Assembly (NCBI GenBank): GCA_902765305.1
Contig: CACWZI010000024.1
Span: 1-48,673, forward strand
Origin: an uncultured Eubacteriales bacterium
GTDB taxonomy: Bacteria; Bacillota; Clostridia; Christensenellales; Aristaeellaceae
DNA length: 48,673 nucleotides
Reading direction: 5' to 3'
The notes under the pieces are model-generated. The model was given only the letters and a program-made list of their open reading frames with translations, made no database searches and was not told where the DNA came from. Shown here piece by piece: positions 2,253 to 44,360 of the stretch; the first letter of the stretch is position 1, and each line of letters begins with the position of its first letter. The position numbers were made by a program, and so were the translations under genes.

Positions 2253-2280
2253 GGGAACAGGGAACAGGGAACAGGGAACA
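2253..2280 (+). repeat. GGGAACA x4 heptamer array, left arm
   Basis: Four perfect tandem copies of GGGAACA begin 28 bases after the gyrB stop. The array is followed by GGAATGGCGG, the same junction seen next to the GGAATGA arrays near 33.5 and 34.8 kb. It is the exact inverted partner of 2732-2759. Confidence 0.95.
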
Positions 2281-2329
2281 GGAATGGCGGTTGCCGTACC
2301 CTGGCAACGATATACACAAGGAATCGACG

Positions 2330-2719
2330 ATGATGGACCAGAGGGTTGATGACTATAAGGACCTTATCGCCTGGAGAAGGGCGATGGAGTTGACAAAAGC
2401 GGCGTATTTGTTGGCGCGGATGCTGCCCAGGGAGGAAAACTATGCTCTGGCAGATCAAATCCGTCGCTCCTCAGTCTCCATCCCTTCCAATATTGCTGAA
2501 GGCTATGGAAGAACCGGTTCAAAGGAATATGCCCGTTTTTTGTCAATGGCGCGGGGTTCAAGCTACGAACTTGAAACCCAGATCATACTGTGCGTTGACC
2601 TGGGTTATATTCAGGAGGCGGATACTGTAAAAGCCATTGGATTGTGCAAGGAAGTTGCCAGAATATTGACCCGGATTCTACAATCACTCGTTAATAAACA
2701 AGAGATCAAGACTCATTGA
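2330..2719 (+). CDS. Four-helix-bundle protein (S23/IVS family)
   Basis: Predicted 129-residue all-helical protein of the four-helix-bundle family found as ORFs in 23S rRNA intervening sequences and related to the Avd accessory protein of diversity-generating retroelements. Family hallmarks are visible: DLIAWRRAMELTKAAY near the N-terminus, then QIRRSSVSIPSNIAEGYGR, and KEYARFLSMARGSSYELETQ. The start at 2330 is chosen because AAGGAA lies 6 bases upstream; the reading frame opens 39 bases earlier. The gene interrupts the gyrB-gyrA spacer, has lower GC than its neighbours, and is bounded by exact inverted GGGAACA arrays, which suggests a mobile unit. The molecular function of the family is unknown; nucleic-acid binding is an inference. 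Confidence 0.9.
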   Translation: MMDQRVDDYKDLIAWRRAMELTKAAYLLARMLPREENYALADQIRRSSVSIPSNIAEGYGRTGSKEYARFLSMARGSSYELETQIILCVDLGYIQEADTVKAIGLCKEVARILTRILQSLVNKQEIKTH

Positions 2720-2731
2720 TTCAGCTATTCC

Positions 2732-2759
2732 TGTTCCCTGTTCCCTGTTCCCTGTTCCC
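2732..2759 (-). repeat. GGGAACA x4 heptamer array, right arm
   Basis: Four perfect TGTTCCC copies, the inverted counterpart of 2253-2280. The inner flank read outward is GGAATAGC, against GGAATGGC on the left, so the inverted repeat extends to about 36 bases. It lies 36 bases upstream of the gyrA start. Confidence 0.95.
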
Positions 2760-2795
2760 TCCGAACAACCTTTCTACTGAAACGGAGGCCTCATA

Positions 2796-5285
2796 ATGCC
2801 CGACGAATTCAACATCGGCAAACTGACTCCCCTCAACATCGAGGACGAATTAAAGAAATCCTTTATCAGCTACGCCATGGCGGTCATCGTAACACGCGCC
2901 CTGCCCGACGTGCGGGACGGCCTGAAGCCCGTGCATCGCCGTATTCTCTACTCGATGAACGAGATGGGCATCACGCCGGACAAGCCCTTCCGTAAGTCCG
3001 CGCGTATCGTGGGCGATGTGCTCGGTAAATACCATCCCCACGGCGACAGCTCGGTCTACGACGCCATGGTGCGCCTGGCCCAGGACTTCTCCATCCGCTA
3101 CACGCTGATCGAGGGCCAGGGCAACTTCGGCTCGGTGGACGGCGACGGCGCGGCCGCCATGCGTTACACCGAGGCGAGGCTTTCCAAGCTCTCCATGGAG
3201 ATGGTGCGGGACATCGAGAAGGAGACCGTCGACTTCTATCCGAACTTCGACGAGACCCTGATGCAGCCCGCCGTGATGCCCAGCCGCTTCCCGAACCTGC
3301 TGGTAAACGGCTCCAGCGGCATCGCCGTGGGCATGGCGACCAACATCCCGCCCCACAATTTGGGCGAGGTCATCGACGCTTGCGTGCATTACATCGACCA
3401 TCCCGACTGCACCGTGGACGACCTGATGCAGTTCGTGAAGGGCCCGGATTTCCCCACCGGCGGCGTGATCCTGGGCAAGCGGGGCATCTACGACGCCTAC
3501 CACGAGGGCCGGGGCCGCATCATCGTGCGGGCCAAGAGCGAGATCGAGGAGATGTCCCAGGGCCGCCAGAGGATCGTGGTGACCGAGATCCCCTACATGG
3601 TCAACAAGGCCAAGCTGATCGAGAAGATCGCCGAGATGGTCCACGAGAAGACCGTGGAGGGCATCAGCGACATCCGCGACGAGTCCGACCGCGAGGGCAT
3701 GCGCATCGTCATCGAGCTGAAGCGGGACGTGAACGCCAACGTGGTGCTGAACACGCTGTACAAGCACACCCAGCTGCAGGACACCTTCGGGGCCATCATG
3801 CTGGCGCTGGTGGACGGCACGCCGAAGATCCTCAGCCTGCGGCAGATGATCCACCACTACCTGGAGCACCAGGAGGACGTGATCCGCCGCCGCACCCAGT
3901 ACGACCTGAACAAGGCCGAGGCCCGCAGCCACATCCTGGAGGGCCTGATCATCGCCCTGGACAACATCGACGAGGTCATCGCCCTGATCAGGGCCAGCCA
4001 GACCACTCAGGAGGCCAGGGAGGGCCTGATGAGCCGCTTCGGCCTGTCCGAGCGCCAGGCCCAGGCGATACTGGACATGCGCCTGCAACGGCTGACCGGT
4101 TTGGAAAGGGATAAAATTGAAGCTGAGTATGCCGAGCTTCAGAAGCTGATTGCCTACTATAAAGAGGTATTGGCCAATGAGAGCATGGTGCTGGGCATCA
4201 TCAAGGACGAGATCACCGAGATCAAGCGCAAGTACGCCGACGAGCGCCGCACCGAGATCTCCGCGCTGGAGGGCGAGATCGACATGCTCGACCTGATCGC
4301 CGAGGAGGACATGGTCGTCACGCTGACCCACTACGGCTACGTCAAGCGCCTGCCCAAGGCCACCTACCGCGCCCAGAAGCGGGGCGGCAAGGGCATCGTC
4401 GGGACCACCACCCGTGAGGAGGACTTCGTCGAGCAGATGTACGTGGTCAACACCCACGATACGCTGATGTTCTTTACCAACCGGGGCCGGGTGTACCAGC
4501 TGAACTGCTACCAGATCCCCGAGGCTGGGCGCACCGCCCGGGGCACCGCCATCGTGAACCTGCTGCAGCTGGACGCCGGCGAGAAGGTGAAGGCGCTGCT
4601 GCCGGTGCCGGCGGAGAAGGTGGCGGGCCACTATCTGATCATGGCGACGAGGAACGGCGTGATCAAGCGCACCGAGCTGAGCGAATTCACGAACCTGCGC
4701 AAGAGCGGCCTGATCGCCCTGGTGCTGCGGGAGGACGACGAGCTGATCGGCGTTGCGCTGACCGACGGCAGCTACGAGGTGCTGCTGGGCACCCGGGACG
4801 GCATGGCCATCCGCTTCCCCGAGACGGACATGCGCCCCATCGGCCGCGCGGCTATGGGCGTGAAGTCCATCGAGCTGAACCCCGGCGACGCGGTCGTGGA
4901 CATGTGCCCGGTCTTCCCGGACATGAAGGTGCTGTCCATCACCGAGAACGGCTACGGCAAGCTGACCGAGATCGACGAGTACCGGGTGCAGAGCCGAGGC
5001 GGCAAGGGCATCAAGGCCATGAACCTGACGCCCAAGACCGGCAGGCTGACCTGCCAGCTGCTGGCCGACGAGGCCGAGGACATCCTGCTGATCACCGACG
5101 ACGGCACCATCATCCGCGTGCCCGTGGGCAGCATCTCCACACTGGGCCGCAACACCCAGGGCGTGCGCCTGATGCGCGTGGCAGAGGAGAGCAAGGTGGT
5201 TGGCGTGGCCAGGGCCGAGGCCGAGGAGGAGGAGCCTGAGGAGGACGAGAACCTCGGGAATGCGCCGGAGAACGACGAGATCTGA
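2796..5285 (+). CDS. gyrA: DNA gyrase subunit A
   Basis: DNA breakage-reunion subunit of gyrase. The 829 residues match family length. Seen directly: [19 protein letters not shown] near residues 36-54, the quinolone-region sequence [12 protein letters not shown] (Ser85 and Asp89 correspond to E. coli Ser83 and Asp87, the susceptible-type residues), and catalytic Tyr124 in [10 protein letters not shown]. The C-terminal beta-pinwheel contains a GyrA-box-like KRGGKG near residue 530. The tail is acidic (Glu/Asp-rich). The ATG at 2796 has GGAGG upstream. The last 180 or so bases of the conserved part are duplicated at 7221-7400, so the present 3' end may have been brought in by an insertion. Confidence 0.98.
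5054..5233 (+). repeat. gyrA 3' segment duplicated downstream
   Basis: This segment of gyrA recurs at 7221-7400 with a single difference (A at 5139 against G at 7306). After position 5233 the two copies still align but differ at many positions and by a 15-base indel. Confidence 0.95.
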
Positions 5286-5317
5286 TGAATAAATAATCAT
5301 AGCACAGTCAACACAAG

Positions 5318-5347
5318 GGGCCCTTCGGCGAAAATGCCGAAGGGCCC
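5318..5347. terminator. Bidirectional terminator after gyrA
   Basis: Perfect 12-base arms GGGCCCTTCGGC / GCCGAAGGGCCC with a six-base loop, between the convergent gyrA and the secreted-protein gene. There is no long T-run, so the terminator call is moderate. Confidence 0.6.
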
Positions 5348-5369
5348 TGCTGTGGCATTTATCTGTAGC

Positions 5370-7028
5370 CTATTGCACCTTCGTGGATTTGGTCTTCGAC
5401 CAGGCTGACCAGTAGGTCTTTCTGCCCACCTTCCTGTAGGCGCGAATGTGCACATAGTACTTCTTCCCGCTCTTCAGGCCTTTGATCACCTTCTTCGCTG
5501 TCGCAGCTTTCTTCACCTTGACTGTCGTGCCGTCCTTCAATTTGGAATTCAGCCCGTATTCGATCTCATACCCGGTCACGTCCTCACGGGCCGTCCACTG
5601 GACGGAAAGCTGCTTCGTGCCTGCAGCCAGCTTCGAGATGGATACATTCTTCGGGTTGATGGCAAAGGTCAGCTTTTTCGTGCCTGTGAAGTTCCCCTTG
5701 CCGGTCAGCGTCACCGTGGCAGTGCCCACTTCGATGTTGTTCTTGTAGGCGACGGTGTAGTCCGTGCCCTTTTTCAGCTTTGCTGTGCCGAACTTCACCG
5801 TTACCCCGGGTTTCCTCGCCGCTCCGGAGTATACCGCGTCCTTCAGCGCGCTGAAAGTACACTTCGAAAGCTTTGCGGGCTTAATGGTGAAGGTGACCTT
5901 CCTTGTTCCGGTGTAGTCGCCTTTGCCGGTCAGCGTCACGGTGGCGGTGCCTGCCCCTTTGTTGTTCTTGTAGGAAACAGTGTAGTCGGTGCCCTTCACG
6001 AGCTTTGTCTTGCCGTACTTCACCGTTACCACGGGCTTGAGCGCCTTGCCGGTGTAGGTCTGGTCCTTCACAGTGACCGCGCACTTGCTGATGTTGACCG
6101 GCGCGGGCTTTACGCTGGGATCATTGATCACGTGGAAGGTGATCGTATGCTTGTCGTACTCGGCATTGCCGACGTATACCCCGATTTCAAGGTAGGCCGT
6201 GCCGACGCCGGTGCCTTGGAAGACGAGGGAAAAATCGCAGACGTAGCGGCCGTCCTCCTCCCGCAGCGGCGGGATGTCGCCGCTGTTGGACTTGGCTGAA
6301 ATCAGTTCGACGACGTCATCTCCGCTTTGGCCGAAGCCCCAGTTGTAATCGGTCTCCATCCGGTAGAGGGACAGCCTGAAGTTGAAGCAGGCGGTGTTGC
6401 TGTAGGCCAGGTTGATGGTGTATTCCGTCTGTTCCGGAATCAGATAATAGCCGGGGTTTTCCGGCTGGGGTTCCGAGGACGAACCGTCGTCGACCGTGAC
6501 CGTGATGACCTCGGGATCCGACGTGCCCAGGTGCGAGGCAATGCTGAGCCTGTATGTGCCGGGCTCGGTCAGGTTGACGGTGGCATAGCACTTGCCGGTA
6601 CCGTTGAAGGCAATGTTGTTATTGCGGATCTCGACGACCTCGGTGTGGCCGTCCTTGGTGATGCCAAGGTAGGTGGGCATGTAATTGTTGTAGATCTCGG
6701 CATCGGTCAGGAGGTGGCCCGACGATCCCCACACGCCGTCGTCGTCGTAGGTCAGGAGTATATCCACCTCTCCTGGGGACAGTATGTCGCCGTCCGAGGG
6801 CTGGACGAAGTGCGCCAGGTTGCCTGAGACATAATTGGCCACCGGGGTGTCCGATTGCAGGACGACATTCTCCAATGCCGCTACGTTTATGTCCACCGAT
6901 GGCGTGACGTCCTCCAATACCATCGCTTCCGCGTCCACCGGCACGATGAGGATCTCATCCTCCGCCAAAGCCGTATTTACCGTTGCCAGCAGCAGCGCCG
7001 CCAGCAGGATGTACAGGAATCTCTTCAT
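5370..7028 (-). CDS. Secreted Ig-like (MBG-type) and fibronectin-like protein
   Basis: Exported protein of 552 residues. It has a clear signal peptide (KRFLYILLAALLLATVNTALA). The central part has no recognised domain. There follow two tandem Ig-like repeats of the MBG type with the pattern Y-x-G-x-x-x-x-P-x-V-T-V-K, then GTDYTV-x-YKNN, then G-T-A-T-V-T-L-T-G-K-G. The last 90 or so residues look like a fibronectin type III fold (LSVQWTA...YEIEYG...YYVHIRAY). Such modules mediate adhesion or cell-surface attachment. The start at 7028 sits 8 bases after GGGGAG; an alternative ATG is at 7034. The gene lies between two copies of the gyrA 3' end, so it is probably part of an insertion. Its precise role is unknown. 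Confidence 0.8.
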   Translation of the reverse strand: MKRFLYILLAALLLATVNTALAEDEILIVPVDAEAMVLEDVTPSVDINVAALENVVLQSDTPVANYVSGNLAHFVQPSDGDILSPGEVDILLTYDDDGVWGSSGHLLTDAEIYNNYMPTYLGITKDGHTEVVEIRNNNIAFNGTGKCYATVNLTEPGTYRLSIASHLGTSDPEVITVTVDDGSSSEPQPENPGYYLIPEQTEYTINLAYSNTACFNFRLSLYRMETDYNWGFGQSGDDVVELISAKSNSGDIPPLREEDGRYVCDFSLVFQGTGVGTAYLEIGVYVGNAEYDKHTITFHVINDPSVKPAPVNISKCAVTVKDQTYTGKALKPVVTVKYGKTKLVKGTDYTVSYKNNKGAGTATVTLTGKGDYTGTRKVTFTIKPAKLSKCTFSALKDAVYSGAARKPGVTVKFGTAKLKKGTDYTVAYKNNIEVGTATVTLTGKGNFTGTKKLTFAINPKNVSISKLAAGTKQLSVQWTAREDVTGYEIEYGLNSKLKDGTTVKVKKAATAKKVIKGLKSGKKYYVHIRAYRKVGRKTYWSAWSKTKSTKVQ

Positions 7029-7108
7029 AATCATTCTCCCCTGTTGCGTCGTTGTGTTGCGCCTACGGATATATTATATTATAAAATATTAAAATGTCAA
7101 TATTTTAA

Positions 7109-7220
7109 TATAAAAGAGTCAAGGGGGCAGATCGCTTCAAATTATAGAGTCACAGGGACAGGTCCCTTGACTCACCCGATGAAGCAGGAAAGTGAGTCAG
7201 GGGACCTGTCCCCGCGACTC
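7109..7220. repeat. GAGTCA/GGGGACAGG hairpin repeats
   Basis: Several copies of a short repeat built on GAGTCA and GGGACAGGTCCC-like palindromes, for example GGGACAGGTCCC near 7156 and GGGGACCTGTCCCC at 7201-7214. They adjoin the displaced gyrA fragment directly. A related unit lies at 29374-29405. Confidence 0.75.
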
Positions 7221-7467
7221 CCAGCTGCTGGCCGACGAGGCCGAGGACATCCTGCTGATCACCGACGACGGCACCATCATCCGCGTGCCCGTGGGCAGCA
7301 TCTCCACGCTGGGCCGCAACACCCAGGGCGTGCGCCTGATGCGCGTGGCAGAGGAGAGCAAGGTGGTTGGCGTGGCCAGGGCCGAGGCCGAGGAGGAGGA
7401 TTCCGAGACGGAAGAGCCCGAGGAGGGCGAGAACCTCGAGAACACGACGGAGAACGACGAGATATAA
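7221..7467 (+). pseudogene. gyrA: Displaced gyrA 3'-end fragment
   Basis: In-frame copy of the last gyrA codons: about 80 residues of the C-terminal blade plus the acidic tail. It is 179/180 identical to gyrA over its first part, then ends in a related but different tail (…EEDSETEEPEEGENLENTTENDEI-type). A reading frame can open at a GTG at 7192 inside the repeat, but no ribosome site supports it. The fragment keeps its own stop codon and a strong terminator, as expected if it was once the native end of gyrA before the 5.28-7.22 kb insertion. I infer it is not a functional gene. Confidence 0.9.
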
Positions 7468-7476
7468 AACGTTAAG

Positions 7477-7529
7477 AACCTGACAAAGGGATCGCACGGT
7501 ATGACGCCGAGCGGTCCCTTTGTCAGGTT
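7477..7529 (+). terminator. Terminator of the displaced gyrA end
   Basis: Perfect 15-base arms AACCTGACAAAGGGA / TCCCTTTGTCAGGTT with a 23-base loop that can pair further. It lies 10 bases after the fragment stop codon and is probably the ancestral gyrA terminator. Confidence 0.65.
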
Positions 7530-7576
7530 GCGGGGGAAAATGAGTCAGTGAAAGCCGTCCTTATTGTTTTTTTATG

Positions 7577-7771: not shown

Positions 7772-7915
7772 TGGTTTTTCCTCCTAAATGTGATTGAGAT
7801 TACAGTGTTCCATTTGTATTTTATATTATAGCACATATAGCCTATTATGTATAGTCCATCTGAAAGATTTTTTGCCGCTCAAATAACAGGTATCATATAG
7901 TCAGGGGGTGATAGG

Positions 7916-11316: not shown

Positions 11317-11563
11317 AACTACTGATTTATCGAGCTGTGCTCGATAAATCAGTAGTTAGGGGTTAGGGGTTAGGTTTTAGGGGTTAGGGAATATAGCGGG
11401 CGCAACCAAAAGCCTTCCCCTTCAGGGGAAGGTGGCCCGCGTAGCGGGTCGGATGAGGTCGTTCCCCCTGCGGTAACGATAGTTTGGGCGTTCCCTGAAC
11501 CGGCAGCTTCGCTGCCTGGGGAAGGCTTTGGGAGGCCGTGTCAGCCCGATAAATCAGTATTTG
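11317..11563. mobile_element. Nested intergenic repeat element
   Basis: Composite element of about 250 bases. It starts with 19-base palindrome arms (11317-11335 / 11339-11357) of the ACTGATTTATCGAGC family, continues with five GTTAGGG-type heptamers (11355-11389), then hairpins on CCTTCCCC / GGGGAAGG and CCCGCGTAGCGGG, and closes at 11549-11563 with GATAAATCAGTATT, an inverted copy of the opening arm. The GCCTTCCCC...GGATGAGG module resembles a repeat I recall as common in Clostridia genomes. There is no coding sequence in 11312-11641. Confidence 0.8.
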
Positions 11564-12331: not shown

Positions 12332-12332
12332 T

Positions 12333-22684: not shown

Positions 22685-23212
22685 ATGAAAAAGTTTTTTG
22701 CTGTGCTGACCGTGCTGTGCCTGGTTCTTTCCATGGCTGCGATGGCTGAGAAGGTCACTGTGTTCACCTTCCGAAACGACGTAGTGTTCGGCATGCCCCA
22801 GAAGGACGTCGTCGCCGCAGAAGGCAACGCCCCCCACGAGGTGGAGACCGAGCATACCCTCGGCCCCGTGACCTTTACCGAGGTGGAGTATGAGAACGTC
22901 GCGATTGACAACATCAAGGCTGACGTGAAGTACATGTTCGTCGAGGACGCGCTGGTGGCCATTCGCGTGGATTATGATGACAAGGCCGTGAGCTATGACG
23001 AGATCGACAAGACCCTGACCGCCGCCTACGGCGAAGGCGCGGACCTGGATGTCAAGGCGCTGGGGAACGGCGTCTATGCCGTGGATGACGAAGGCCGTCC
23101 GGAAGCCAAGGCCAAGCTGTGGAATGGCGGCGACGTGCTGGTCGTCGTTGAGCAGGATGAGGACGACGTGGATGTCACCTATCTGGACGCGGTTGCCGCT
23201 TACCTCAAGTAA
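22685..23212 (+). CDS. Small exported protein, unknown function
   Basis: Protein of 175 residues with a signal peptide (MKKFFAVLTVLCLVLSMAAMAE). The mature part is acidic and alternates beta-strand and helix segments, with a V-F-G-M-P-x-x-D-V pattern near residues 34-42 that recalls repeat units of other Clostridia secreted proteins. I do not recognise a family with confidence. GGAGG lies 8 bases before the start. It is monocistronic, between its own promoter and a strong terminator. Confidence 0.8.
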   Translation: MKKFFAVLTVLCLVLSMAAMAEKVTVFTFRNDVVFGMPQKDVVAAEGNAPHEVETEHTLGPVTFTEVEYENVAIDNIKADVKYMFVEDALVAIRVDYDDKAVSYDEIDKTLTAAYGEGADLDVKALGNGVYAVDDEGRPEAKAKLWNGGDVLVVVEQDEDDVDVTYLDAVAAYLK

Positions 23213-33550: not shown

Positions 33551-33696
33551 TAATGAGGAATGAGGAATGGCGGCGCAAATCCCTGGCGGGATTTGATTCT
33601 ATTTTGAAGAGGCATGAGAATGACGGCTTGAATCGATGAAATCCCGGAGGGATTTCAACCATCATTCCTCATTTCTCATTCCTAATTCCTAATTCT
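33551..33696. mobile_element. Heptamer-flanked palindromic element in the carA-carB gap
   Basis: The right side of the element (33661-33696) is a series of ATTCCTC/ATTCCTA/ATTTCTC heptamers. The left side (33553-33570) is the inverted AATGAGG series, followed by GGAATGGCGG. Internal hairpins are AAATCCCTGGCGGGATTT and AAATCCCGGAGGGATTT. The stop codon TAG of carA is the first base triplet of the array (AATTAGGAATTAGG on its strand). Confidence 0.88.
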
Positions 33697-34766: not shown

Positions 34767-34939
34767 AATGAGGAATGAGAAATGAGGAATGAGGAATGGC
34801 GGGGTCGGCTTCGAGTCGCAAATCCTGTATGGATCTGTTTTGACCCGCATTGAGGAAGAGACAACGTCGTTGCAAAATCAGAGAAATCCGTTCAGGATTT
34901 CCTCCTGAATTTCTCATTCCTCATTCCTAATTCCTCATT
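34767..34939. mobile_element. Heptamer-flanked element in the argF-carA gap
   Basis: Left array AATGAGG-type (34767-34797) running into GGAATGGCGG; right array of inverted ATTCCTC-type heptamers (34909-34939). Internal hairpin halves AAATCCTG/CAGGATTT and TCCGTTCAGGA lie between. About 170 bases in total. Confidence 0.86.
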
Positions 34940-36232: not shown

Positions 36233-38608
36233 ATGAGCATGAATCTGATCGCGATACTGGTCAGCCTGGCCATGATGCTGACCGGCGCGGGCGGGATCGC
36301 CCAGCCGGGAGCGGCGCTGCCGACGGGTGAGATCGCCAGGACGCTGACGCTGAGCAATGTGAACGTGACCTGGAACGGGGAGACGCTTCAACTGGACCCC
36401 CAGGCCCGCGTTGGCGTATCTACCGACGGCAAGAAGGCCCTGTACGACTTTGCCGTTGAGCTGGGGGACAAGACGCTGCTGCCCATGCAGCTGAGCGCCG
36501 GCGAAAAGGGCGTCACGGTGCTGTCCGGCAACAGCGGCGTCGCCGTGACCGTCACCGCTGAGGCGCTGGCCGGGCTGGCCGCGCAGATGGAGCAACAGGT
36601 GAACGCCTCACTCGCGGCATCGGGCAGTGACGACGCCCAACTGATGAAGTTCCTCACCGAGGAGTACATGCCCGCCTATGCCGGCCTGCTGAAGTTGGCC
36701 ATGGATCCGGTTCAGCGCCAGCAGATCAACGCCATGGGACAGACGGTGTACGACCGGGTGGTGGACCGCGGACAGGGCACGCCCGCCAAGCTGGAGGTGG
36801 ACGGCGTGAGCTACGACGTCACCGCCTACAGCTATAGCCTGGACGCCATGCAGATGGCGGCGCTGAGCGACGCGATGTTCGACGAAGTCCCCGAACTGAA
36901 GGATTACTACAGCGCCCTGTTCAAGCTGTACGGCATGCTGCCGGAGGAAGCGGGGCTGAAGGGCCTGGACAGCTTTACCGCCCTGTTTGAGCGCTTCGGC
37001 GTGCAGATGCGGATGGACATCGAGGAGAAGCGCACCGACGACGGCGCGGTGGACCAGATGGACAACGTGCTGACCATGGACCTGAACAGCATGATGAACG
37101 TGCCCCAGGGCCTGGCGACCGTGGAAGCGGAAATGAAGAACGCGGAGCCGGAGGCCCTGTCCGAGGGAGAGGCCCAGATGGCAGGCGCACCGCTGGTGGC
37201 GGAAGCCGCGGGCGAGACTGAAACGGTGGACGCTGCCCCGGCGGTCGCGGATGAGGCTGAAGCGGCGGAAGCTGCCCCGGCGGTCGCGGACGAGGCTGAA
37301 GCGGCGGAAGCTGCCCCGGAGACTGCGGACGAGGTTGAAGCGCCGAACGCTGCCCCGGAGGTTGAAGGCGAGGCCGAAGCGCCGAACGCTGCCCCAGAGG
37401 TCGCGGATGAGGCTGAAGCGGCGGAAGCTGCCCCGGAGGCCGCAGGCGAGGCCGAGGCGCCGGTGCTGGCCCCCATTGTGATGAACCTGCACAGCCTGAA
37501 GCTCCCGGAGTACAATGAATCCACCGGCAGCTGCGTCTACGCGGTGGACGAGCATCATAGCGTCGATTTCTCCATGACGGCCAACGAGAGCGAGGGCGTC
37601 CAGGAGGTGACGGCGAAGGTGATCGTGTCCGAGGATGGCAAGAAGACCCAGGGCGGCAAGCTGTCCGCGTTTATGGCCTATGACGAGATGGGCACGGTCA
37701 GCTACAGCATGAACATGAAGGCCATTCAGCAGGATACCGCCAAGGCGGATGCCACCTTCTACGGCGTGGAGAATCCCGACGGCACCTCAGAGAACAGCGC
37801 GGCCTTTGAGCTGCACTCCAGGAAGCTGAACGCCTCGGTCTCCTTCGATTTGAACGTCACCGCGGATGCCATTGAAGACGCCACCGCCACCGCCCAATCC
37901 GCCTGCGTGATCGAGGACCTGTCCCATGAGGGCATTCAGGCCCTTGGACAGGATTCCGAAGTGATGGGCAAGCTGATGCAGGCGCTGGGCTCCGCGCTCG
38001 TCGACTTCAATACCCTGAAGGCGGATCCGGGGATGAAGAGCCTGAGGTCGCTGATGCGGGGCAAGGGCCTGCCCATCGATGTGGATGAGCTGGACGAACC
38101 GGATGTGGACCTCGACTTCGACATCGGGGAAGCGCCTGAAGGGGGCGATGAAAACTACGGACTCGTGGTCGGCGATGACGGCAATTACGAGCTGGTGGTC
38201 GGGGATGGCGGCGAGACCGCCTTCGATTTCGACGATGAGCCGGTGGAGGATGACGGCGTGCTGGCCTTTGCGCAGCCCAAGCTGAGCTGGCTGCCCAGCG
38301 GCTGGGGCGTGACGGCCGTCGAGACCGATACCGCCTACGACTGGGTGCAGATGACCGTCACCGATGCCGATGGGGCCGAGTGCGCCTACGCCATATTCTT
38401 CCTCGATCCCGAAGCCGGCACCGCCAATTACATCGTGCAGGACAACGGCAAGGTGCTGGACGGCCGGATGATGAATGTGACAGACTTCGGCGAGGGCGGG
38501 CTGTCCGTCACCGTCAGTGAGAACGGCATGTATGGCAACCTGATGTTCAACTCCGAGGCCATCGAGCTGGATACGATCGGCCAGATCGTGGCAGGGATCG
38601 AGTTCTGA
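36233..38608 (+). CDS. Large secreted protein with Ala/Glu 13-residue repeats
   Basis: Exported protein of 791 residues. It begins with a hydrophobic signal segment (NLIAILVSLAMMLTGAGG). The region around residues 335-413 has six tandem repeats of 13 residues of the type AAPAVADEAEAAE, an acidic spacer encoded by 39-base DNA repeats (about 37232-37465). The flanks are beta-rich domains without a recognised family. The late part is very acidic (DELDEPDVDLDFDIGEAPE). Ribosome site AAGGAGG is 7 bases before the start. It may be a cell-surface or extracellular protein; function unknown. Confidence 0.8.
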   Translation: MSMNLIAILVSLAMMLTGAGGIAQPGAALPTGEIARTLTLSNVNVTWNGETLQLDPQARVGVSTDGKKALYDFAVELGDKTLLPMQLSAGEKGVTVLSGNSGVAVTVTAEALAGLAAQMEQQVNASLAASGSDDAQLMKFLTEEYMPAYAGLLKLAMDPVQRQQINAMGQTVYDRVVDRGQGTPAKLEVDGVSYDVTAYSYSLDAMQMAALSDAMFDEVPELKDYYSALFKLYGMLPEEAGLKGLDSFTALFERFGVQMRMDIEEKRTDDGAVDQMDNVLTMDLNSMMNVPQGLATVEAEMKNAEPEALSEGEAQMAGAPLVAEAAGETETVDAAPAVADEAEAAEAAPAVADEAEAAEAAPETADEVEAPNAAPEVEGEAEAPNAAPEVADEAEAAEAAPEAAGEAEAPVLAPIVMNLHSLKLPEYNESTGSCVYAVDEHHSVDFSMTANESEGVQEVTAKVIVSEDGKKTQGGKLSAFMAYDEMGTVSYSMNMKAIQQDTAKADATFYGVENPDGTSENSAAFELHSRKLNASVSFDLNVTADAIEDATATAQSACVIEDLSHEGIQALGQDSEVMGKLMQALGSALVDFNTLKADPGMKSLRSLMRGKGLPIDVDELDEPDVDLDFDIGEAPEGGDENYGLVVGDDGNYELVVGDGGETAFDFDDEPVEDDGVLAFAQPKLSWLPSGWGVTAVETDTAYDWVQMTVTDADGAECAYAIFFLDPEAGTANYIVQDNGKVLDGRMMNVTDFGEGGLSVTVSENGMYGNLMFNSEAIELDTIGQIVAGIEF
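37232..37465 (+). repeat. 39-base coding tandem repeats
   Basis: Six imperfect units built on GCTGCCCCGG-N-GGTCGCGGA...GCTGAAGCGGCG encode the 13-residue AAP-x-x-A-D-E-A-E-A repeats. Copy number is likely to vary between strains. Confidence 0.85.
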
Positions 38609-38676: not shown

Positions 38677-39459
38677 CTACAGATCCACCTTGTGGTCCAG
38701 CAGCCAGGCCGAAGCGCCGGCGAACAGGGCGCAGAGGATAAAGTTCATCAGCAGCGACCAGCCGAGGGTGGCCTTGACTTCTTCAAGGGTGGTGCCCAGG
38801 GCGACGCGCTCATACAGCAGCTTTTGCGCCAGCCAGGAGCTGCCCCAGGACAGGGCGACGAACAGCACGATGCTGATCAGGCCCTTCAAAAAGCCCTTCT
38901 TGTTCTGCAGCAGCGTGGCCGACAGGGTGATGGCCAGGTAGGCGGTGCACATCGTCAGCAGCACCTCCAGCAGCACGCTGGCGGCGGAAAAGCCCGCCAT
39001 TTGCAGAATCTGCTGTACGGTGGCGTCGGTCTTCAGGCCGAAGCGCAGCATGGCGTTCAGGCTGTCCAGCGTCTGGGCGTCCAGGTGGGACCGTGCCAGC
39101 AGGTAGCGGGCGTCCAGCCATCCCGCGGTGCCGAACAGCGCCGTGGCGGCCAGGGCGACCAGCGCGATGAACAGAAGCTTCGACAGCACGATGCTGATGG
39201 ACCGCACCGGGGCCATGAATATCAGGTAGCCGCACTTTTCCCGCAACTCCTGGGAATAGCCGGCGATGCCCGCGATGACCAGGTAGGCGAAGGCGGCGAA
39301 GGTCAGCACCATGATCAGCGAAAGGCAGACGATCATCAGCTGGGGCTTTTCCAGCTTCACGCCGGCGATGAAGCCCAACTCCAGCCCGGCCAGGCCCGCC
39401 AGCAGTGCCAGCAGCGTGACGCGCCACTTCCGGAATTCATACTTCATCAGCTTAAGCAT
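38677..39459 (-). CDS. ABC transporter permease (ABC-2 type)
   Basis: Membrane subunit of 260 residues with six or so hydrophobic helices, starting MLKLMKYEFRKWRVTLLALLAGLAG. It pairs with the ATPase whose gene end it overlaps by 8 bases (translational coupling). Such two-gene exporters often carry peptides, lipids or antibiotics out of the cell. No substrate clue is visible. Confidence 0.88.
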   Translation of the reverse strand: MLKLMKYEFRKWRVTLLALLAGLAGLELGFIAGVKLEKPQLMIVCLSLIMVLTFAAFAYLVIAGIAGYSQELREKCGYLIFMAPVRSISIVLSKLLFIALVALAATALFGTAGWLDARYLLARSHLDAQTLDSLNAMLRFGLKTDATVQQILQMAGFSAASVLLEVLLTMCTAYLAITLSATLLQNKKGFLKGLISIVLFVALSWGSSWLAQKLLYERVALGTTLEEVKATLGWSLLMNFILCALFAGASAWLLDHKVDL

Positions 39460-40180
39460 AGGTCTTCGCCTCCCCCTCGGGCTCCGGCTCTGCCGAGGCG
39501 TGCCCGTAGACTTCGATATAGAGGTCCTTCAGCGTGCGGCCGGCGCAGATTTCCTGCTTGTCGCCGGCCATCACCAGCTTGCCCTGCTTCAGGAACACCA
39601 GGCAGTCCACCACGTCCTCCAGCTCGTCCACCAGATGGGTGGAGATCAGCATCGTGCGGCCCGACTGGCGGCCGGCGCGAATGGCCTCGATGGTCTGGGT
39701 GCGGGTGAGGATGTCCACGCCGTTCAGCGGCTCGTCGAACATCATCAGCGCCGCGTCCCGGCTGAGGGCCAGAGAGAGCCGCAGCTTCGCTGCCATGCCC
39801 GAGGACAGCTGGCGAATGCGGTCGGCCTCGTCCAGCTCCATGTCCGTCAGCATCCGGCGAAAGCGGGAGGGATCGAAGTCCTGGAAGAAGTCGGCGTAGT
39901 AATTGCCGATGTCCTTCACGGTCATGTAGTTGTAGAAGTAGTTCTCAGTGGGCATGTAGGCCACCCGGGCCTTGGTGGCCGGGCCGATGTCCTGGCCGTC
40001 CAGGGTGATCTGCCCCGAGGTGGGCCGGGCCAGCCCGGTGATGAGCTTCATCATCGTGGTCTTGCCGCTGCCGTTGGGTCCAAGCAGCAGGCAGGTCTGT
40101 CCCGCTTCGATATTCAGCGATACGTCGTCCAGCGCGGTGCGCCGAAGGTACCGCTTGGTCACGTTTTGAAGTGTGAGCAT
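39452..40180 (-). CDS. ABC transporter ATP-binding protein
   Basis: ATPase of 242 residues. Walker A GPNGSGKTTMMK (residues 34-45), signature LSSGMAAKLRLSLAL, Walker B ALMMFDEP and H-loop STHLVDEL are present. The C-terminal extension is acidic. It powers the permease encoded downstream. It forms a two-gene unit with no visible regulator. Confidence 0.95.
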   Translation of the reverse strand: MLTLQNVTKRYLRRTALDDVSLNIEAGQTCLLLGPNGSGKTTMMKLITGLARPTSGQITLDGQDIGPATKARVAYMPTENYFYNYMTVKDIGNYYADFFQDFDPSRFRRMLTDMELDEADRIRQLSSGMAAKLRLSLALSRDAALMMFDEPLNGVDILTRTQTIEAIRAGRQSGRTMLISTHLVDELEDVVDCLVFLKQGKLVMAGDKQEICAGRTLKDLYIEVYGHASAEPEPEGEAKTYA

Positions 40181-40205
40181 GGCGTTGTCCTTTCCTTGTC
40201 GATTG

Positions 40206-40369
40206 GAGTCATATGTCGCGACAGCAATCTGCCGCCACCGTCTTCGCGGGGGAAGTGGCGACGGATCGTCGCCGCTACGAAGGAAACGTTAGCGTGTAGA
40301 GGCGGCAATCTGCCGCCATAAACAGCGATCTTTGTACCATCACCATGGCGGCCTGGAGGCCGCCGCTAC
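40206..40369. repeat. REP-like hairpin cluster
   Basis: Hairpins GTGGCGACGG...CGTCGCCGCTAC (40255-40278), GTAGAGGCGGCA...TGCCGCC (40295-40319) and ATGGCGGCC...GGCCGCCGCTAC (40345-40369), plus a degenerate copy near 40216. Relatives of the clusters at 17265 and 48532. They fill the non-coding stretch 40181-40426. Confidence 0.82.
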
Positions 40370-40426
40370 AGTTATCAGGATAGCATCACAGGGTTTGTTT
40401 TCCGTTTACGTCGAATTAGAATTGCA

Positions 40427-40816
40427 TTAGAAATGCCGACCCAGGTCGTGGGAGGCGCGCAACCAGGCCAGCAATTCGCCGTCGATGTCGGACGGGGAGC
40501 CGATGATCGCGTGGTGGGTGAAGCGGTTTGGGCGGATGGGCACGCAGATGAGCCGTGGCGACGGGTCCGGCGCGTCCAGCGAGAAGGTGACCGTCAGGAA
40601 CGGGTCGGGCCGCTCGGCCCTGCGCCGCACCGGCGTCAGCGACGCGCAGCAGTACAGCCGGCCGTCATGGAAGCCGATCTGGGTCTTCTTCACCCGAATC
40701 TCCGTCGCCGGGTATTCCGCCAGCAGCCTTTTTGCCAGCGCCTCGTACAGCACAAGCGCATCGGCATGCCCGTCGAAGAAGAACAGGACGTCGGGGGTGA
40801 GGAGACTATCCCACAT
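40427..40816 (-). CDS. DUF5655-like protein
   Basis: Cytoplasmic protein of 129 residues. The segment LTVTFSLDAPDPSPRLICVPIRPNRFTHHAIIGSPSDIDGELLAWLRASHDLG matches the DUF5655 type, whose members have a conserved R-x-N/H-R-F-T-H-H pattern. The start codon overlaps the end of the PBP gene by 11 bases. The role is unknown. Confidence 0.72.
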   Translation of the reverse strand: MWDSLLTPDVLFFFDGHADALVLYEALAKRLLAEYPATEIRVKKTQIGFHDGRLYCCASLTPVRRRAERPDPFLTVTFSLDAPDPSPRLICVPIRPNRFTHHAIIGSPSDIDGELLAWLRASHDLGRHF

Positions 40817-42212
40817 ATTCCACCGCCTTCTTCAGCGCCTTGGCGGCCAGCTCGCTGGGCATGCGGGCGCCGGCGCCGCCGCCCTCGATGACCACGGCGA
40901 TGGCGTAGGGGTGCGCGTCGTCCTGTATGAAGCCGGTGAACCAAGCGTTGGTTTCGATCTCCTTGTTGTCGCTGACCTCGGCGGAGCCGGTCTTGCCGCC
41001 CACCCGCAGCCCGTCGATGGCGGCGCGGGTGGCGGTGCCGCTTTCCACGGTCTGATACATAAAGTCGGCAATCACCCCGGCGGTCTGCGTATCCAACACC
41101 CGCCGGTAGACCTCGCTCTTCGCAGTGGCGGTGGCCGCGCCCTGGGTATTGGCGATGCGCTGGATCAGCAGGGGCTTCATCATCACGCCGCCGTTGGCCA
41201 CTGTGCCGGAGATCATGGCCATGTGCAGCGGGGTGACCAGCACCTCGCCCTGGCCGATGCCCGCCCACACCAGGCCGTTCATGCTGTTAACGGCGGTGGG
41301 AAAGGCAGAGTTGTAGATCACAAAGTCGCCGAACTTGAAATTCTCATTGAAGCCGAAGGCCTCTGCAGTGGCCTGAAGGCGCTCAAGCCCCAGCTGGTAG
41401 GCCAGCTTGCCGAAGGTGACGTTGCAGCTGCGCTTGAAGGCGGTCTTCAGGTTCAGCGAACCGTGGGCGGTGTTCCCGGCGCAGACGATGTGTCCGCCCT
41501 CGTAATTCCACTCGCCGGAGCAGCTGAAGCCCTGGCCGGTGACGCCGGCGTCATTGGTCAGGGCGGCGGCCAGCGTGACGATCTTGAATACCGAGCCGGG
41601 GGTGTACAGCCCCTGCAGGCATCGGTTCAGGTAGGCGGTGTCCTCCACGGTGGCGTCGGGATGGCCGTTCAGGTCGTAGGGATCGTAGCTGGGCATGGAG
41701 ACCATCGCCAGGATCTCGCCGGTCTTGTAGTTGGTCACGCACACGGCGCCCCGGTAGCCCTCGGGAAATTTGTCGGCGATATACGCCTGCAGGGGGCCGT
41801 CCACGGTGATCTGTATGCTGCTGCCCACGTGGCGCTTGCTGGCGAACAGCTCGCTCAGCCGGTCCACCAGCGATGTGGAGATGTCCAGGAGCGTTGCCGA
41901 GTAGAAGGTCTCGATGCCGGTGCCGCTCATGCCGGCGGTGTCGCCCACGGTCTGGGACAGGGCCCGGCGGGCGGCGGCGTTTTTCGTGTACTGGCGGGAG
42001 CCGTCCTCGGCGGTGGTGGCCAGCAGGTTGCCGTCCCGGTCGGTGATGTCCCCCCGCAGGCTGTTGGTGGCCCGCAGGCGGCTGTTGCGCACGTCCGAGG
42101 CCCAGATGGTGCCCTGGGTGAACACCGTCATGGCAAACCAGGCAGCCAGACCCACGAACATGACGACCACCAACGTGCCGACGAGGCGCATATTGCGTCT
42201 GAGCTCCTTCAT
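40806..42212 (-). CDS. pbpA: Class B penicillin-binding protein (PbpA/FtsI-like transpeptidase)
   Basis: Cross-links peptidoglycan outside the membrane. 468 residues. N-terminal membrane helix (about residues 9-30). The active motifs are S207-x-x-K210 in GSVFK, S262-C-N264 and K407-T-G409 in GGKTGSAEV. Short dimerisation region compared with PBP2/FtsI. Start at 42212 with GGAGGTGA before it. It is the last core gene of an FHA-RodA-PBP unit, the arrangement also found in Actinobacteria. Confidence 0.93.
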   Translation of the reverse strand: MKELRRNMRLVGTLVVVMFVGLAAWFAMTVFTQGTIWASDVRNSRLRATNSLRGDITDRDGNLLATTAEDGSRQYTKNAAARRALSQTVGDTAGMSGTGIETFYSATLLDISTSLVDRLSELFASKRHVGSSIQITVDGPLQAYIADKFPEGYRGAVCVTNYKTGEILAMVSMPSYDPYDLNGHPDATVEDTAYLNRCLQGLYTPGSVFKIVTLAAALTNDAGVTGQGFSCSGEWNYEGGHIVCAGNTAHGSLNLKTAFKRSCNVTFGKLAYQLGLERLQATAEAFGFNENFKFGDFVIYNSAFPTAVNSMNGLVWAGIGQGEVLVTPLHMAMISGTVANGGVMMKPLLIQRIANTQGAATATAKSEVYRRVLDTQTAGVIADFMYQTVESGTATRAAIDGLRVGGKTGSAEVSDNKEIETNAWFTGFIQDDAHPYAIAVVIEGGGAGARMPSELAAKALKKAVEYVG

Positions 42213-42228
42213 GCGATCACCTCCCAAT

Positions 42229-42310
42229 AAATGAGGAATTAGGAATTAGGAATGAGGAATTAAGTGGCGGGGCTATTCATTCCTCATTCCTAATTCCTCA
42301 TTTCTAATTC
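42229..42310. mobile_element. Heptamer-flanked element in the RodA-PBP gap
   Basis: Left array AATGAGGAATTAGGAATTAG (42229-42262) and inverted right array (42275-42310) of ATTCCTC/ATTCCTA units around a short core AAGTGGCGGGG. The TGA of rodA directly adjoins the right array. Confidence 0.86.
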
Positions 42311-43604
42311 AATACGCGCTTTCTCTCAGTTCCAGTGTTTCGATGTCTTTGGCTTCGTCCTCGGCGTTCATCGACGACAGGCCCAGCAGGAGGCCCATGG
42401 AGAAGAAGGTGCTCACCAGCGAGGAACCACCGTAGCACACCAGGGGCAGCGTGACGCCGGACAGGGGCAGCAGCTTCGTATTTCCGCCGGCGATCAGCAT
42501 GGTCTGAAGCCCCAGCATGATCACCAGGCCGAAGGCGGTCAGCGAGTGGAAGGACGTGCGGGCGTTGAAGGCCACGATCAGGCCGCGCATGATGATCAGC
42601 ACGTAAACGGCCAGCAGGCCTACGGCGAATATCAGTCCGAATTCCTCTGTGATGGCGGCGAAAATGAAGTCGGAATGATAGAGGGGGATGTTGCGGGGCA
42701 TTCCCAGCCCCAGGCCCATGCCGAACAGCCCGCCGCTGCCTATGGCGATCAGCGCATGCACCAGCTGGTAGCCCAGGTTCTCCGGGTCGCTCCAGGGGTT
42801 TTTCCATATGGCCACGCGCCCCTGCACGTAGGGCAGCGCCCTGTAGGCCAGCACCGCCGCCACCGCGCCCATGCCCAGTCCCGCCAGGCTGATGAAGGCG
42901 TTGGAGGTGGCCACGTAGTACATGGCCACGGTGGTCAAAAAGTACAGCAGCACCGCGCCCAGGTCCTTCTCCGCCAGCAGTATGCCGCAGCAGGCCGCCG
43001 CGAAGGCGATGGTGGGAATGCACTTGACGAATCGGGGCCGCTGGGAAAAGCCGCTGGCCAGGCACAGGATCAGCACCGGCTTCATGAACTCGCTGGGCTG
43101 CACCGAGAAGCCACCCAGGCCGATCCAGTTGCGGGCGCCGTACTTGTATACGCCGATGACAGGCAGGTAGGGCGAGGCCAGCACCATAAGGCACAGCACC
43201 ATCAGGAGGGGGGTGTATCGCTTCCAGTTGCGCCAGGCGCGTATAAACGCCGCCCCGATGAACATTGCGGCGATGCCGACCACCGCGTAGATGGCCTGTG
43301 TGCGGGGGGTGACGTTGGCCTTGGCGATGTCCGACAGCGAGATCAGCCCCACGCTGCACAGCAGCAGCACCAGTATCAGTATCGCCCGGTCCACCGGCCA
43401 GACGCGGCCCATCAGCGTCGTCACCAGCCAAGTGCCCAGCGGCAGCGCCACGGCGAAGCACAGCGCCTGCACGTTGACGCCGCCCCTTTGAAAGGCGATC
43501 AGCAGCATTGCCAGGAACTGAAACACCATCACCGCGGAAAGCAGCAGGTGGGTATTGGAGCGCATCAGCGCCTTTTTCATCTTTTCAACTCTGCTTGGAG
43601 TCAT
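42309..43604 (-). CDS. rodA: FtsW/RodA-type peptidoglycan glycosyltransferase
   Basis: SEDS-family membrane glycosyltransferase of 431 residues with about ten membrane helices. Characteristic pieces include GARNWIGLGGFSVQPSEFMKP, LAEKDLGAVLLYFL, GMGLGLGMPRNIPLYHSDFIFAAITEEFG and PLSGVTLPLVCYGGSSL. It polymerises glycan strands with the PBP encoded next. The start ATG overlaps the FHA stop as ATGA. Whether it serves division or elongation is not visible. Confidence 0.95.
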   Translation of the reverse strand: MTPSRVEKMKKALMRSNTHLLLSAVMVFQFLAMLLIAFQRGGVNVQALCFAVALPLGTWLVTTLMGRVWPVDRAILILVLLLCSVGLISLSDIAKANVTPRTQAIYAVVGIAAMFIGAAFIRAWRNWKRYTPLLMVLCLMVLASPYLPVIGVYKYGARNWIGLGGFSVQPSEFMKPVLILCLASGFSQRPRFVKCIPTIAFAAACCGILLAEKDLGAVLLYFLTTVAMYYVATSNAFISLAGLGMGAVAAVLAYRALPYVQGRVAIWKNPWSDPENLGYQLVHALIAIGSGGLFGMGLGLGMPRNIPLYHSDFIFAAITEEFGLIFAVGLLAVYVLIIMRGLIVAFNARTSFHSLTAFGLVIMLGLQTMLIAGGNTKLLPLSGVTLPLVCYGGSSLVSTFFSMGLLLGLSSMNAEDEAKDIETLELRESAY

Positions 43605-44134
43605 ACTTCCGTTTCCTCAAGGAACAGGTCCTCATTTCCGTCTGGAAAATCCGCCGCTTCCCCATCCATCTCTTCCGCCATCCTGCCGTCGGTGAGTACC
43701 AGCAGCAGGCGCACCCGGCCGAGCGTGAATTCGCTGCCGTCGCCCAGAAGCAGGGTTTCGGCACGGTGGCCGTCGGCGTCCCGCATCGCTGCGCCGGGAC
43801 GGGCCTGTATGAGCAGCCCCTGGTCGGTCAGCTGGAAGTAGGCGTGCTTGCGCCGGATGCTGGCGTGGCGGATTCGGATGTCCGAGCGGCGAAGCGCGCC
43901 GATCATGCCCTCGCGGATCACCGGGTAGCGCATGCCCCGGCAGGCCTTGCCGTCGCCTTCCAGCACCAGCAGCTCGCCGCTCAGCCCGGTCTGGGGCGAT
44001 AAGCGCCGAAGCACACCGGCCCGTCGGCTGTCGATGATGGTGATTCGCCATGCCCGCAGCACGATCAGTACCATCAGCGCGGCGAATACGTACCGTGCCC
44101 CCAGGGCGACAAGCTCGTACAGGCCTTCGGACAT
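43601..44134 (-). CDS. FHA-domain membrane protein
   Basis: Protein of 177 residues with an N-terminal membrane helix (LVALGARYVFAALMVLIVL) and a C-terminal FHA domain (IGALRRSDIRIRHASIRRKHAYF, then LLLGDGSEFTLGRVRLLL). FHA domains bind phosphothreonine. In similar operons FHA proteins link a Ser/Thr kinase to RodA and PBP. No kinase is in this window. Stop codon overlaps the RodA start. Confidence 0.9.
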   Translation of the reverse strand: MSEGLYELVALGARYVFAALMVLIVLRAWRITIIDSRRAGVLRRLSPQTGLSGELLVLEGDGKACRGMRYPVIREGMIGALRRSDIRIRHASIRRKHAYFQLTDQGLLIQARPGAAMRDADGHRAETLLLGDGSEFTLGRVRLLLVLTDGRMAEEMDGEAADFPDGNEDLFLEETEV

Positions 44135-44174
44135 CGCGAAACACCTCGCCTTCTGACATAGATTATCATTTTAT

Positions 44175-44203
44175 ATTATACGCCCGCGCCATTAACGGCG
44201 CAA
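44175..44203 (-). promoter_or_regulatory. Promoter of the FHA-rodA-pbpA unit
   Basis: On the minus strand TTGCGC (44198-44203), 17-base spacer, TATAAT (44175-44180). Confidence 0.75.
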
Positions 44204-44281
44204 GGCGGCGAGAGCCGGGCGCGTGGAACATCATTGTGACGAAATAACAGCGAAAACGGTCGAATTGTACCGAAATTACCA

Positions 44282-44311
44282 ATGACAGAGGGGGTGGGAT
44301 AGTGGTATAAT
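44282..44311 (+). promoter_or_regulatory. Promoter of the spoIID-caspase unit
   Basis: ATGACA (44282-44287), 18-base spacer, extended -10 TGGTATAAT (TATAAT 44306-44311). The heptamer array starts two bases further on, inside the expected leader. Confidence 0.65.
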
Positions 44312-44312
44312 C

Positions 44313-44360
44313 GGAATGAGGAATGAGGAATGAGGAATGAGGAATGAGGAATGAGGAATG
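44313..44360 (+). repeat. GGAATGA heptamer array (6.9 copies)
   Basis: Six perfect tandem GGAATGA units and a seventh partial, followed by GGGGACAGCCCGG. Single-sided: no inverted partner is close. It falls in the probable 5' leader of the spoIID-type gene. The stretch 44135-44454 otherwise holds two divergent promoters and no gene. Confidence 0.92.

Follow-up and report, generated by a model that had tools for sequence, protein, structure and literature searches.

Why do arrays of 7-bp tandem repeats stand, mostly as inverted pairs, in the gaps between genes of this contig from an uncultured Eubacteriales bacterium, and what do they enclose? The window analyzed here is the whole stretch of 48,673 nt, which is one entire contig (C24) of a 3.88-Mb assembly in 177 contigs. 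Between its gyrB and gyrA genes, inverted arrays of the heptamer GGGAACA enclose a PF05635/TIGR02436 gene ("23S rRNA intervening sequence protein") that encodes a four-helix-bundle (4HB) protein of 129 amino acids and was overlooked in the original prediction, an earlier reading of the sequence. We consider it probable that such arrays are the ends of minimal mobile elements, that each 4HB protein recognizes the heptamer of its own element, and that gene-less copies have been moved in trans. Direct support for the elements comes from their architecture, the matching of their arms, the concordance of protein and heptamer, presence and absence at the same sites, one exact target duplication, and decay products.

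The gene-bearing element of the window was delimited by Tandem Repeats Finder (TRF), by the pairing of its arms, and by neighbors named with NCBIfam models, the source of all gene names in the window. Its 5′ arm (GGGAACA × 4.4; positions 2252–2282, plus strand) is followed by the 4HB gene (2330–2719, plus strand) and by a 3′ arm of inverted GGGAACA × 4.4 (2730–2760, minus strand). The 4HB gene scores 126.6 bits with PF05635 (cut-off 33.8) and 118.4 bits with TIGR02436 (cut-off 24); a Pfam search returned PF05635 alone, and no Y1 (HUH) transposase. The single relative found in the PDB is 2GSC (XCC0516, E 5e-23) from X. campestris, a ring of five bundles (PMC4990558). Folded as RNA, positions 2250–2762 pair their two arms (z −8.2), and three gene-less elements fold with z between −5.3 and −8.3. 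The element lies outside any 23S rRNA gene, and a few exact 23S rRNA k-mers searched across the 4HB loci were not found there, which is a weak test. The 4HB query had no match in phage records, and Rfam had none in the window at gathering score.

All arrays named in the original prediction were recovered by TRF. A period scan of the window (score at least 11) found 12 arrays with a period of 7 and 11 at the harmonic period 14, whereas each of the other periods between 4 and 13 appeared once or not at all; 20 dinucleotide-preserving shuffles gave 2 period-7 arrays altogether (none in 18, one in each of two). GGGAACA, GGAATGA, GGAATTA, and GGGGTTA are all consistent with the pattern GGRRWBA, which, repeated 2.7 times, occurs at 417 places in the genome (194 + 223), the reversed pattern at none (0 + 0). 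The proposed excess of period-7 arrays is thus real and genome-wide.

Inverted partners were also borne out: four convergent pairs occur in the window and 23 in the genome. In addition to the pair around the 4HB gene, the window holds three gene-less elements. The one between carA and carB has a GGAATGA arm (33552–33569, plus strand), a 92-bp core (33570–33661, no strand assigned) with hairpins CAAATCCCTGGCGGGATTTG and GAAATCCCGGAGGGATTTC, and an inverted arm (33662–33695, minus strand); the one between argF and carA has a GGAATGA arm (34767–34798, plus strand), a core of 110 bp, and an inverted arm (34909–34939, minus strand); and a minimal element adjoining an FtsW/RodA-family gene has a GGAATTA/GGAATGA arm (42230–42260, plus strand) and an inverted arm (42277–42309, minus strand) around a core of just 16 bp. 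Two arrays are solo, with no inverted partner within 700 bp: GTTAGGG (11355–11389, plus strand), which is of the GGGGTTA class found elsewhere in the genome in one gene-bearing element (L031) and in gene-less ones (L010, L011, L252, and L254), and GGAATGA × 7.4 (44313–44364, plus strand). One and the same GGGAACA-class repeat lies near the left (36–66, minus strand) and right (48623–48653, plus strand) limits of the window; because the window is a whole contig, these are contig ends.

The association of gene and arrays holds throughout this genome. All three PF05635 genes found there lie between inverted heptamer arrays, and the three heptamers differ: GGGAACA in the window, TTTTAGG/GGGGTTA on contig C25 (L031), and GAATTGA on contig C49 (L033), where the gene is truncated. 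Thirty-two stretches of the genome contain 67 arrays, of which 46 form the 23 convergent pairs and 49 have 4 to 5 units. The cores of these pairs, sought over distances of at most 700 bp, measure 16 to 447 bp; three hold the 4HB genes (447, 372, and 234 bp; two of these three stretches came from the 4HB search itself), and the other 20 measure 16 to 247 bp.

We then extended the comparison to other bacteria. PF05635 occurs in 27 of 60 genomes (own genome included; 56 rows, of which the 51 read exclude three fragments and two genes with stops in G025). Strict period-7 arrays (12 of 12) lie within 400 bp of these 51 genes upstream in 13 cases, downstream in 16, and on both sides in 9; every other period from 4 to 13 gave 0, except for one array of period 12. 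When seven 4HB proteins were searched against 84,980 species, each represented by one genome, 589 stretches were confirmed, and the best 80 of these come from Bacillota, Bacteroidota, Planctomycetota, Pseudomonadota, Acidobacteriota, Kiritimatiellota, Lentisphaerota, Treponema, SAR324, candidate phyla, and one archaeal bin, as judged from titles with some phyla assigned; PF05635/TIGR02436 genes are thus spread over many bacterial groups. Among these 80, period-7 arrays (score at least 12, within 300 bp) stand upstream of 31 genes, downstream of 32, on both sides of 22, and on any side of 41, compared with 2 and 3 in control stretches 1.2 to 1.5 kb away. Periods 4 to 6 and 9 to 13 gave 0 or 1, period 8 gave 3 and 3, the harmonic period 14 gave 29 and 27, and period 15 gave 3 and 3. 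One Clostridia bin (G068, the genome of L205) has 16 PF05635 matches, and the four that were read carry differing heptamers.

Plasmids carry such genes as well. In PLSDB the 4HB query matches 32 plasmids, mostly cyanobacterial. Fourteen plasmid loci were read, 13 of them cyanobacterial (two identical), and of these 13, 12 have a heptamer array (score at least 9) on any side and six on both; two Nostoc plasmid loci bear GGGAACA, the heptamer of the window. The 4HB protein of Trichormus variabilis (AVA_RS28115) is of the GGAGTCA type and that of Nostoc sp. C052 of the GGGAACA type. On plasmids of Pseudanabaena galeata and Anabaena sp. 90 (L222 and L226), a CRISPR locus carries the 4HB element between its cas6 and cas4 genes, and cas1d adjoins in Anabaena sp. 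90.

In a pooled set of 144 4HB genes (score at least 9; L232, identical to L233, left out), a period-7 array lies on any side of 103 and on both sides of 75. Mononucleotide-shuffled flanks, used as the null, passed the same score in 2 of 432 upstream and 0 of 432 downstream cases. The two arms match as inverted repeats in 62 of the 75 two-sided genes and as direct repeats in 5; permuted partners match in 6.8 on average and in 15 at most. The 5′ arm is richer in G than in C in 86 of 91 cases (C exceeds G in 4), and 75 of the 91 upstream arrays have three to five whole units. A further 30 PF05635 rows from ten genomes, partly genes of the 80-locus set, stand outside the pooled count, and the alignment of 4HB loci comprised 74 of the 80 plus the window (three with in-frame stops and three others being left out).

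If each 4HB protein recognizes its own heptamer, related proteins should keep the same heptamer. A maximum-likelihood tree was built from 47 proteins, 4 of the 51 (below 88 amino acids) being left out, with heptamers and sites labeled by eye. The tree groups the proteins of GGGAACA (support 100/99), GGGAAAA (97/84), and GGGAGTA (91/77) elements, and those of GGAATGA, GAATTGA, and GAGAGTG elements also group. For 27 of 37 proteins, the nearest neighbor shares the heptamer (random mean 2.3, maximum 12 in 5000). This concordance holds where position is constant: the gyrB–gyrA gap contains GGGATTA, GGGAAAA, GGGAACA, or GGGAGTA elements in different species, and at that site alone the nearest protein has the same heptamer in 10 of 11 cases (random 2.6). 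Conversely, GGGAGTA and GGGAAAA proteins from other sites cluster with their heptamer-mates. Relatedness of the protein and identity of the heptamer therefore go together, even among elements at one site.

The abundance of arrays points the same way. GGGAGTA arrays are commoner in the seven genus genomes with a matching 4HB gene (194, 20, 43, 105, 203, 111, and 72 arrays) than in the 21 without (eleven with 0, the rest with 3 to 77; p = 4e-4). Across ten genomes, the pattern AGTGGNTA occurs at 23 places in the genome whose 4HB element bears it, at 6 and 2 in two others, and at none in seven. ACGTYYW occurs at 9 places in its own genome, at 12 and 1 in two others, and at none in seven; because all nine places are on the contig of the element itself, no spread is shown. 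The pattern GGRANTCAGRANTCAG was mis-specified by one surplus base, and its zero counts have no meaning.

Sites without the element, which the original prediction proposed to look for in sister strains, exist at two chromosomal loci and on plasmids. A gyrA query matches all 28 genus genomes, in 5 of them at just 63 to 68% identity and probably in a paralogue. The gyrB–gyrA gap could be read in 22 (one more ends at a contig end): ten have a 4HB element, one has a remnant (G024), eight have other content, and three (G019, G027, and G005) lack the element, their gaps measuring 33 to 51 nt from the last four gyrB codons. In G022 one element in this gap (L036 and L101) has a much expanded 5′ side, in which runs of GGGAGTA are interspersed with copies of a unit about 75 bp long, and repeats of the type CTCCCTCAGTCAGC...GGGAGGGAGCC lie inside the gap in G001, G006, G008, G015, and G021. 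Seventeen of 31 carA rows were read; the carA–carB gap is without an element in G027 and G022 (8 nt), G015 (28 nt), and G024 (48 nt), and in others it holds GGAATTA/GGAATGA, GGGATTA, or AGAGTTT elements. In a family of conjugative cyanobacterial plasmids, the site is filled in Trichormus and Scytonema and empty in Aulosira, N. carneum, and Fremyella. When Aulosira and N. carneum are each aligned with Trichormus (flanks 96 to 98% identical), the alignments of the two flanks have GTAAT in common, an overlap of exactly 5 bp. The Trichormus element reads as beginning and ending with a heptamer unit, and the left arm at this site has five units in Trichormus and three in Scytonema.

Gene-less copies retain their arms and the hairpins of their cores. 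A common class of core carries hairpins (C/G)AAATCC-N-GGATTT(G/C) near its ends; over 122,553 bp, 17 such hairpins lie within paired elements and one outside, that one in an unpaired element. In two relatives, GGAATGA-armed 4HB genes (L063 and L067) have a GAAATCC-N-GGATTTC hairpin before the 3′ arm, so that the hairpin cores look like gene-less derivatives of such elements. Cores of the AAATCC-N-GGATTT class occur with GGAATGA, GGGGTTA, and AGTGGCT arms, and a single-hairpin core occurs with AGAGTTT arms. The suggestion that one element type has exchanged its heptamer is thus supported: judged from these sequences, the exchange appears to have taken place around one core class and in both arms together. 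The other suggestion, that the arrays serve a mobile unit for recognition or extension, is likewise supported by their position at element ends, their tracking of protein clades, the gaps without an element, and the target duplication. A junction said to be shared by two families, GGAATGGCGG, is indeed present at the three arrays named (2281, 33564, and 34793, the last two having been given 2 bases off), and a fourth copy at 23121 is remote from any array. It is common rather than universal, since just 8 of the 23 pairs of the genome have TGGCG no more than 12 nt inward from the left-hand arm (element orientation uncorrected).

The original prediction further held that arrays target stop codons, several beginning at or within 30 bases of one. 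As to distance, the inverted arm of the carA–carB element overlaps the carA stop codon (33689–33691), an array touches the stop codon of the FtsW/RodA-family gene, and an array starts 27 bases past that of gyrB; the array near argF ends 34 bases away, and the name rodA is unsettled, the best model being ftsW below its cut-off. Targeting in the form stated is not supported. The elements examined lie in short intergenic gaps, for which selection against hits in genes would suffice, and many heptamers contain a stop triplet (56 of 91 5′ arms read forward, 36 of 91 as the reverse complement), so that an array can itself supply a stop.

A complete element consists of about four to five tandem heptamers, one 4HB gene of about 110 to 135 codons (23S-IVS/Avd-like, PF05635; see below), and the same heptamers inverted. 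From these associations we infer that the 4HB protein binds the heptamer and has a role in movement. A ring of five bundles like that of 2GSC may bind the array, as a guess with one unit per subunit in view of array lengths of about four to five units, pair the two element ends, and then recruit or perform strand transfer. The insertions examined occupy gaps between genes, with 5 bp of target duplicated in the single clean case. A resident 4HB protein of matching class probably mobilized in trans those copies that lack the gene but retain arms around a short core. Once transcribed, the arms would pair into one long stem, at which RNase III could remove the element from an operon mRNA in the way reported for the 23S intervening sequence (IVS); such cutting would make insertion between operon genes tolerable.

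Several observations weigh against this reading. The nearest protein has a different heptamer in 10 of 37 cases, and nearest neighbors stand at a common site in 28 of 31, so that descent accounts for part of the concordance. In the tree, GGGATTA proteins form a grade, neither GGAATTA nor GGGAATT proteins are united, and ten array-less proteins form one clade. No period-7 array was detected at 41 of the 144 4HB genes. Eight of the 28 genus genomes have no 4HB match, and some of these are rich in arrays. GGGAACA arrays are abundant where no GGGAACA 4HB gene was found (294 in G017, 226 in G003, and 195 in G027), and their association with the gene (p = 0.04) is a weak test with two gene-bearing genomes; such copies may persist without the gene, or the gene may have been missed in incomplete bins. 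The exact target duplication is one only, on a plasmid and outside the genome of the window. Another site, filled in Nostoc ATCC 53789 and C052 but empty in C057, hints at a duplication of 4 to 5 bp, TTCTA, which may be partly element end; because a related element elsewhere ends in these letters, this duplication is not independent proof. Five other plasmid sites (C, N, Calothrix brevissima, Aulosira plasmid2, and Calothrix PCC 7716) gave no clean boundary. Transposase genes adjoin two of the 14 annotated plasmid loci (L231 and L234), and an integrase is close by in two others (L227 and L228); these genes lie outside the arms but could supply a helper, and no known transposase was seen between arms in the same 14 loci, which are not a full survey. 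Finally, we know of no catalytic motif in the 4HB fold, so that the protein as mobilizer rests on association.

Among the 80 loci, the archaeal, Nomurabacteria, Omnitrophota, KSB1, and Nitrospirae loci show no period-7 array at a score of at least 9. Arrays of period 8 occur at five loci, four of them without heptamers (L154, L191, L192, and L218), the archaeal and Nitrospirae bins among these, and a 4HB gene on a Gemmatirosa plasmid (L235, 1440–1900) lies between arrays of an 8-bp unit. By eye, several array-less genes (among L050, L055–L058, L070, L072, L076–L078, L080, and L081) have upstream direct repeats of about 7 nt with varied hairpins between them, for example ATATCGC units, which are perhaps another repeat type tied to PF05635.

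The lack of a known catalytic site in the 4HB protein gives weight to the alternative that the elements are mobile and that an unlinked transposase or reverse transcriptase does the cutting and joining, the 4HB protein being an arm-binding accessory or regulator. This we regard as unlikely, though it deserves a serious hearing. A precedent is Avd of diversity-generating retroelements, an accessory protein that PF05635 members resemble in sequence and structure and that retrohoming requires in addition to a reverse transcriptase (PMC10053308). The 5-bp duplication would also suit a DDE-type enzyme, and transposase or integrase genes stand near 4 of the 14 annotated plasmid loci. However, an unlinked enzyme would have to be one for each heptamer family, or a single one blind to the ends, and of the 23 pairs in this genome three have 4HB genes in their cores and the other 20 have cores of only 16 to 247 bp. 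Unlike in Avd systems, no reverse transcriptase is adjacent to a 4HB gene in this genome, its RVT_1 matches lying on contigs C114 and C1 and its PF05635 genes on C24, C25, and C49. Just 8 of the 28 genus genomes yielded RVT_1 matches, G001, G022, G026, and G010, all rich in GGGAGTA arrays, not being among them, and this distribution weakens the reverse-transcriptase route.

Miniature inverted-repeat transposable elements (MITEs) are short and gene-less, with inverted ends, many copies, and a short target duplication. The small size, inverted ends, many gene-less copies, and 5-bp duplication at one plasmid site would all fit MITE-like derivatives of an ordinary insertion sequence that carries the 4HB gene as a passenger. 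We find this improbable. No parent transposon was seen and no transposase was noticed between such ends, neighbors having been annotated in the 14 plasmid loci only and no survey made; Pfam finds PF05635 alone in the gene of the window; and, unlike in MITEs, the ends consist of tandem arrays and change from family to family around a constant 4HB gene. Slightly less probable again is that the arrays are host regulatory sites, with the 4HB protein as a regulator bound both there and at its own gene, so that proximity to genes would reflect regulation rather than mobility. Protein and heptamer would match under such a scheme, and heptamers have been read as regulatory in published work, TAACTGA upstream of start codons in Beggiatoaceae (PMC4679880) and GGGACCG in Geobacter (PMC2700814). 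It sits poorly with presence and absence in the same gap, remnants, unlike cores between arms, and copies on conjugative plasmids with an exact target duplication. That the arrays are plain microsatellites grown by slipped-strand mispairing is scarcely credible: copy number does vary by whole units (five heptamers in Trichormus, three in Scytonema) and a few arrays are very long, but inverted matching partners, modest length (4 to 5 units in 49 of 67), association with one gene family, shared cores, and target duplication all speak against it.

The reading of the arrays as ends of mobile 4HB elements joins two bodies of earlier work. Heptameric short tandemly repeated repetitive (STRR) sequences have been described since about 1990, without a source. 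Cyanobacterial STRRs and the repeats GGGAATC of Xanthomonas, TAACTGA of Beggiatoaceae, and GGGACCG of Geobacter are, like the arrays here, tandem 7-bp units, mostly intergenic and in many copies (PMC4692102, PMC4679880, and PMC2700814). The paired form, of which the original prediction knew no example, has a published counterpart in the 70 and 75 convergent pairs of GGGAATC arrays reported for two Xanthomonas genomes (PMC4692102). A word search of the main texts of these three papers for "four helix" or "helix bundle" returned nothing, and the link of our elements to Xanthomonas GGGAATC would be through this literature and 2GSC from X. campestris. On the protein side, S23p of the IVS in 23S rRNA of Coxiella and Leptospira belongs to the same family, and the IVS likewise ends in inverted repeats, which form a long stem by pairing. 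In the IVS of Coxiella, two to three tandem heptamers GACAGAT stand just ahead of the S23p gene, RNase III cuts the IVS in 23S rRNA, and S23p is described as having no known function (PMC4990558). Unlike the IVS, the elements here occupy gaps between protein genes, are present in many copies, have gene-less derivatives, and on a plasmid show a 5-bp duplication.

In organization, a parallel is REPIN/RAYT, in which a small gene is flanked by recognition repeats and many gene-less repeat pairs are probably moved in trans. RAYT, however, belongs to the Y1 HUH transposases and REPs are palindromic, whereas our elements combine a PF05635 protein with tandem heptamers. Among the matches listed in the open-access literature, with preprints and subscription journals outside, no paper joins heptamer arrays to 4HB genes as one element. 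One candidate that contains "four helix bundle protein" as well as "tandem repeat" (PMC5524665) was set aside, the gene being merely tabulated there among predicted phage regions; in both Flavobacterium columnare strains it lies between the guanylate kinase and nicotinate-nucleotide adenylyltransferase genes in such a region (PMC5524665). With heptameric repeats and S23p/IVS genes both known, we rate the joint element class as new and offer its mechanism as a proposal. If repeats and 4HB gene are one element, the protein gains a substrate and the repeats an origin, two questions that become testable together. Such elements would be mobile without a recognizable transposase, and they would provide a natural set of many protein–DNA (or RNA) recognition pairs with a 7-bp unit. 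More tentatively, as a conjecture we would not yet expect to hold, 4HB proteins may carry out transposition by a new kind of mechanism, without a known transposase and each reading its own 7-bp unit through a repeated array, with the cyanobacterial, Xanthomonas, Geobacter, and other heptamers as footprints of one widespread class in which the heptamer is replaceable in both arms together.

Other repeats lie beside the arrays. Palindromes of the type TACTGATTTATCGAGC-N-GCTCGATAAATCAGTA directly adjoin several heptamer arms, at 11320–11355 of the window and near 62–97, 691–727, and 900–933 of L010; they are a second repeat of the genus and perhaps an insertion target. A repeat of the type AAGCCTTCCCCTTCAGGGGAAGG...CGGATGAGG adjoins the GTTAGGG array at 11400–11540. 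Apart from these, the window contains a 39-bp tandem repeat of 6.8 copies (37200–37463), which overlaps long open reading frames.

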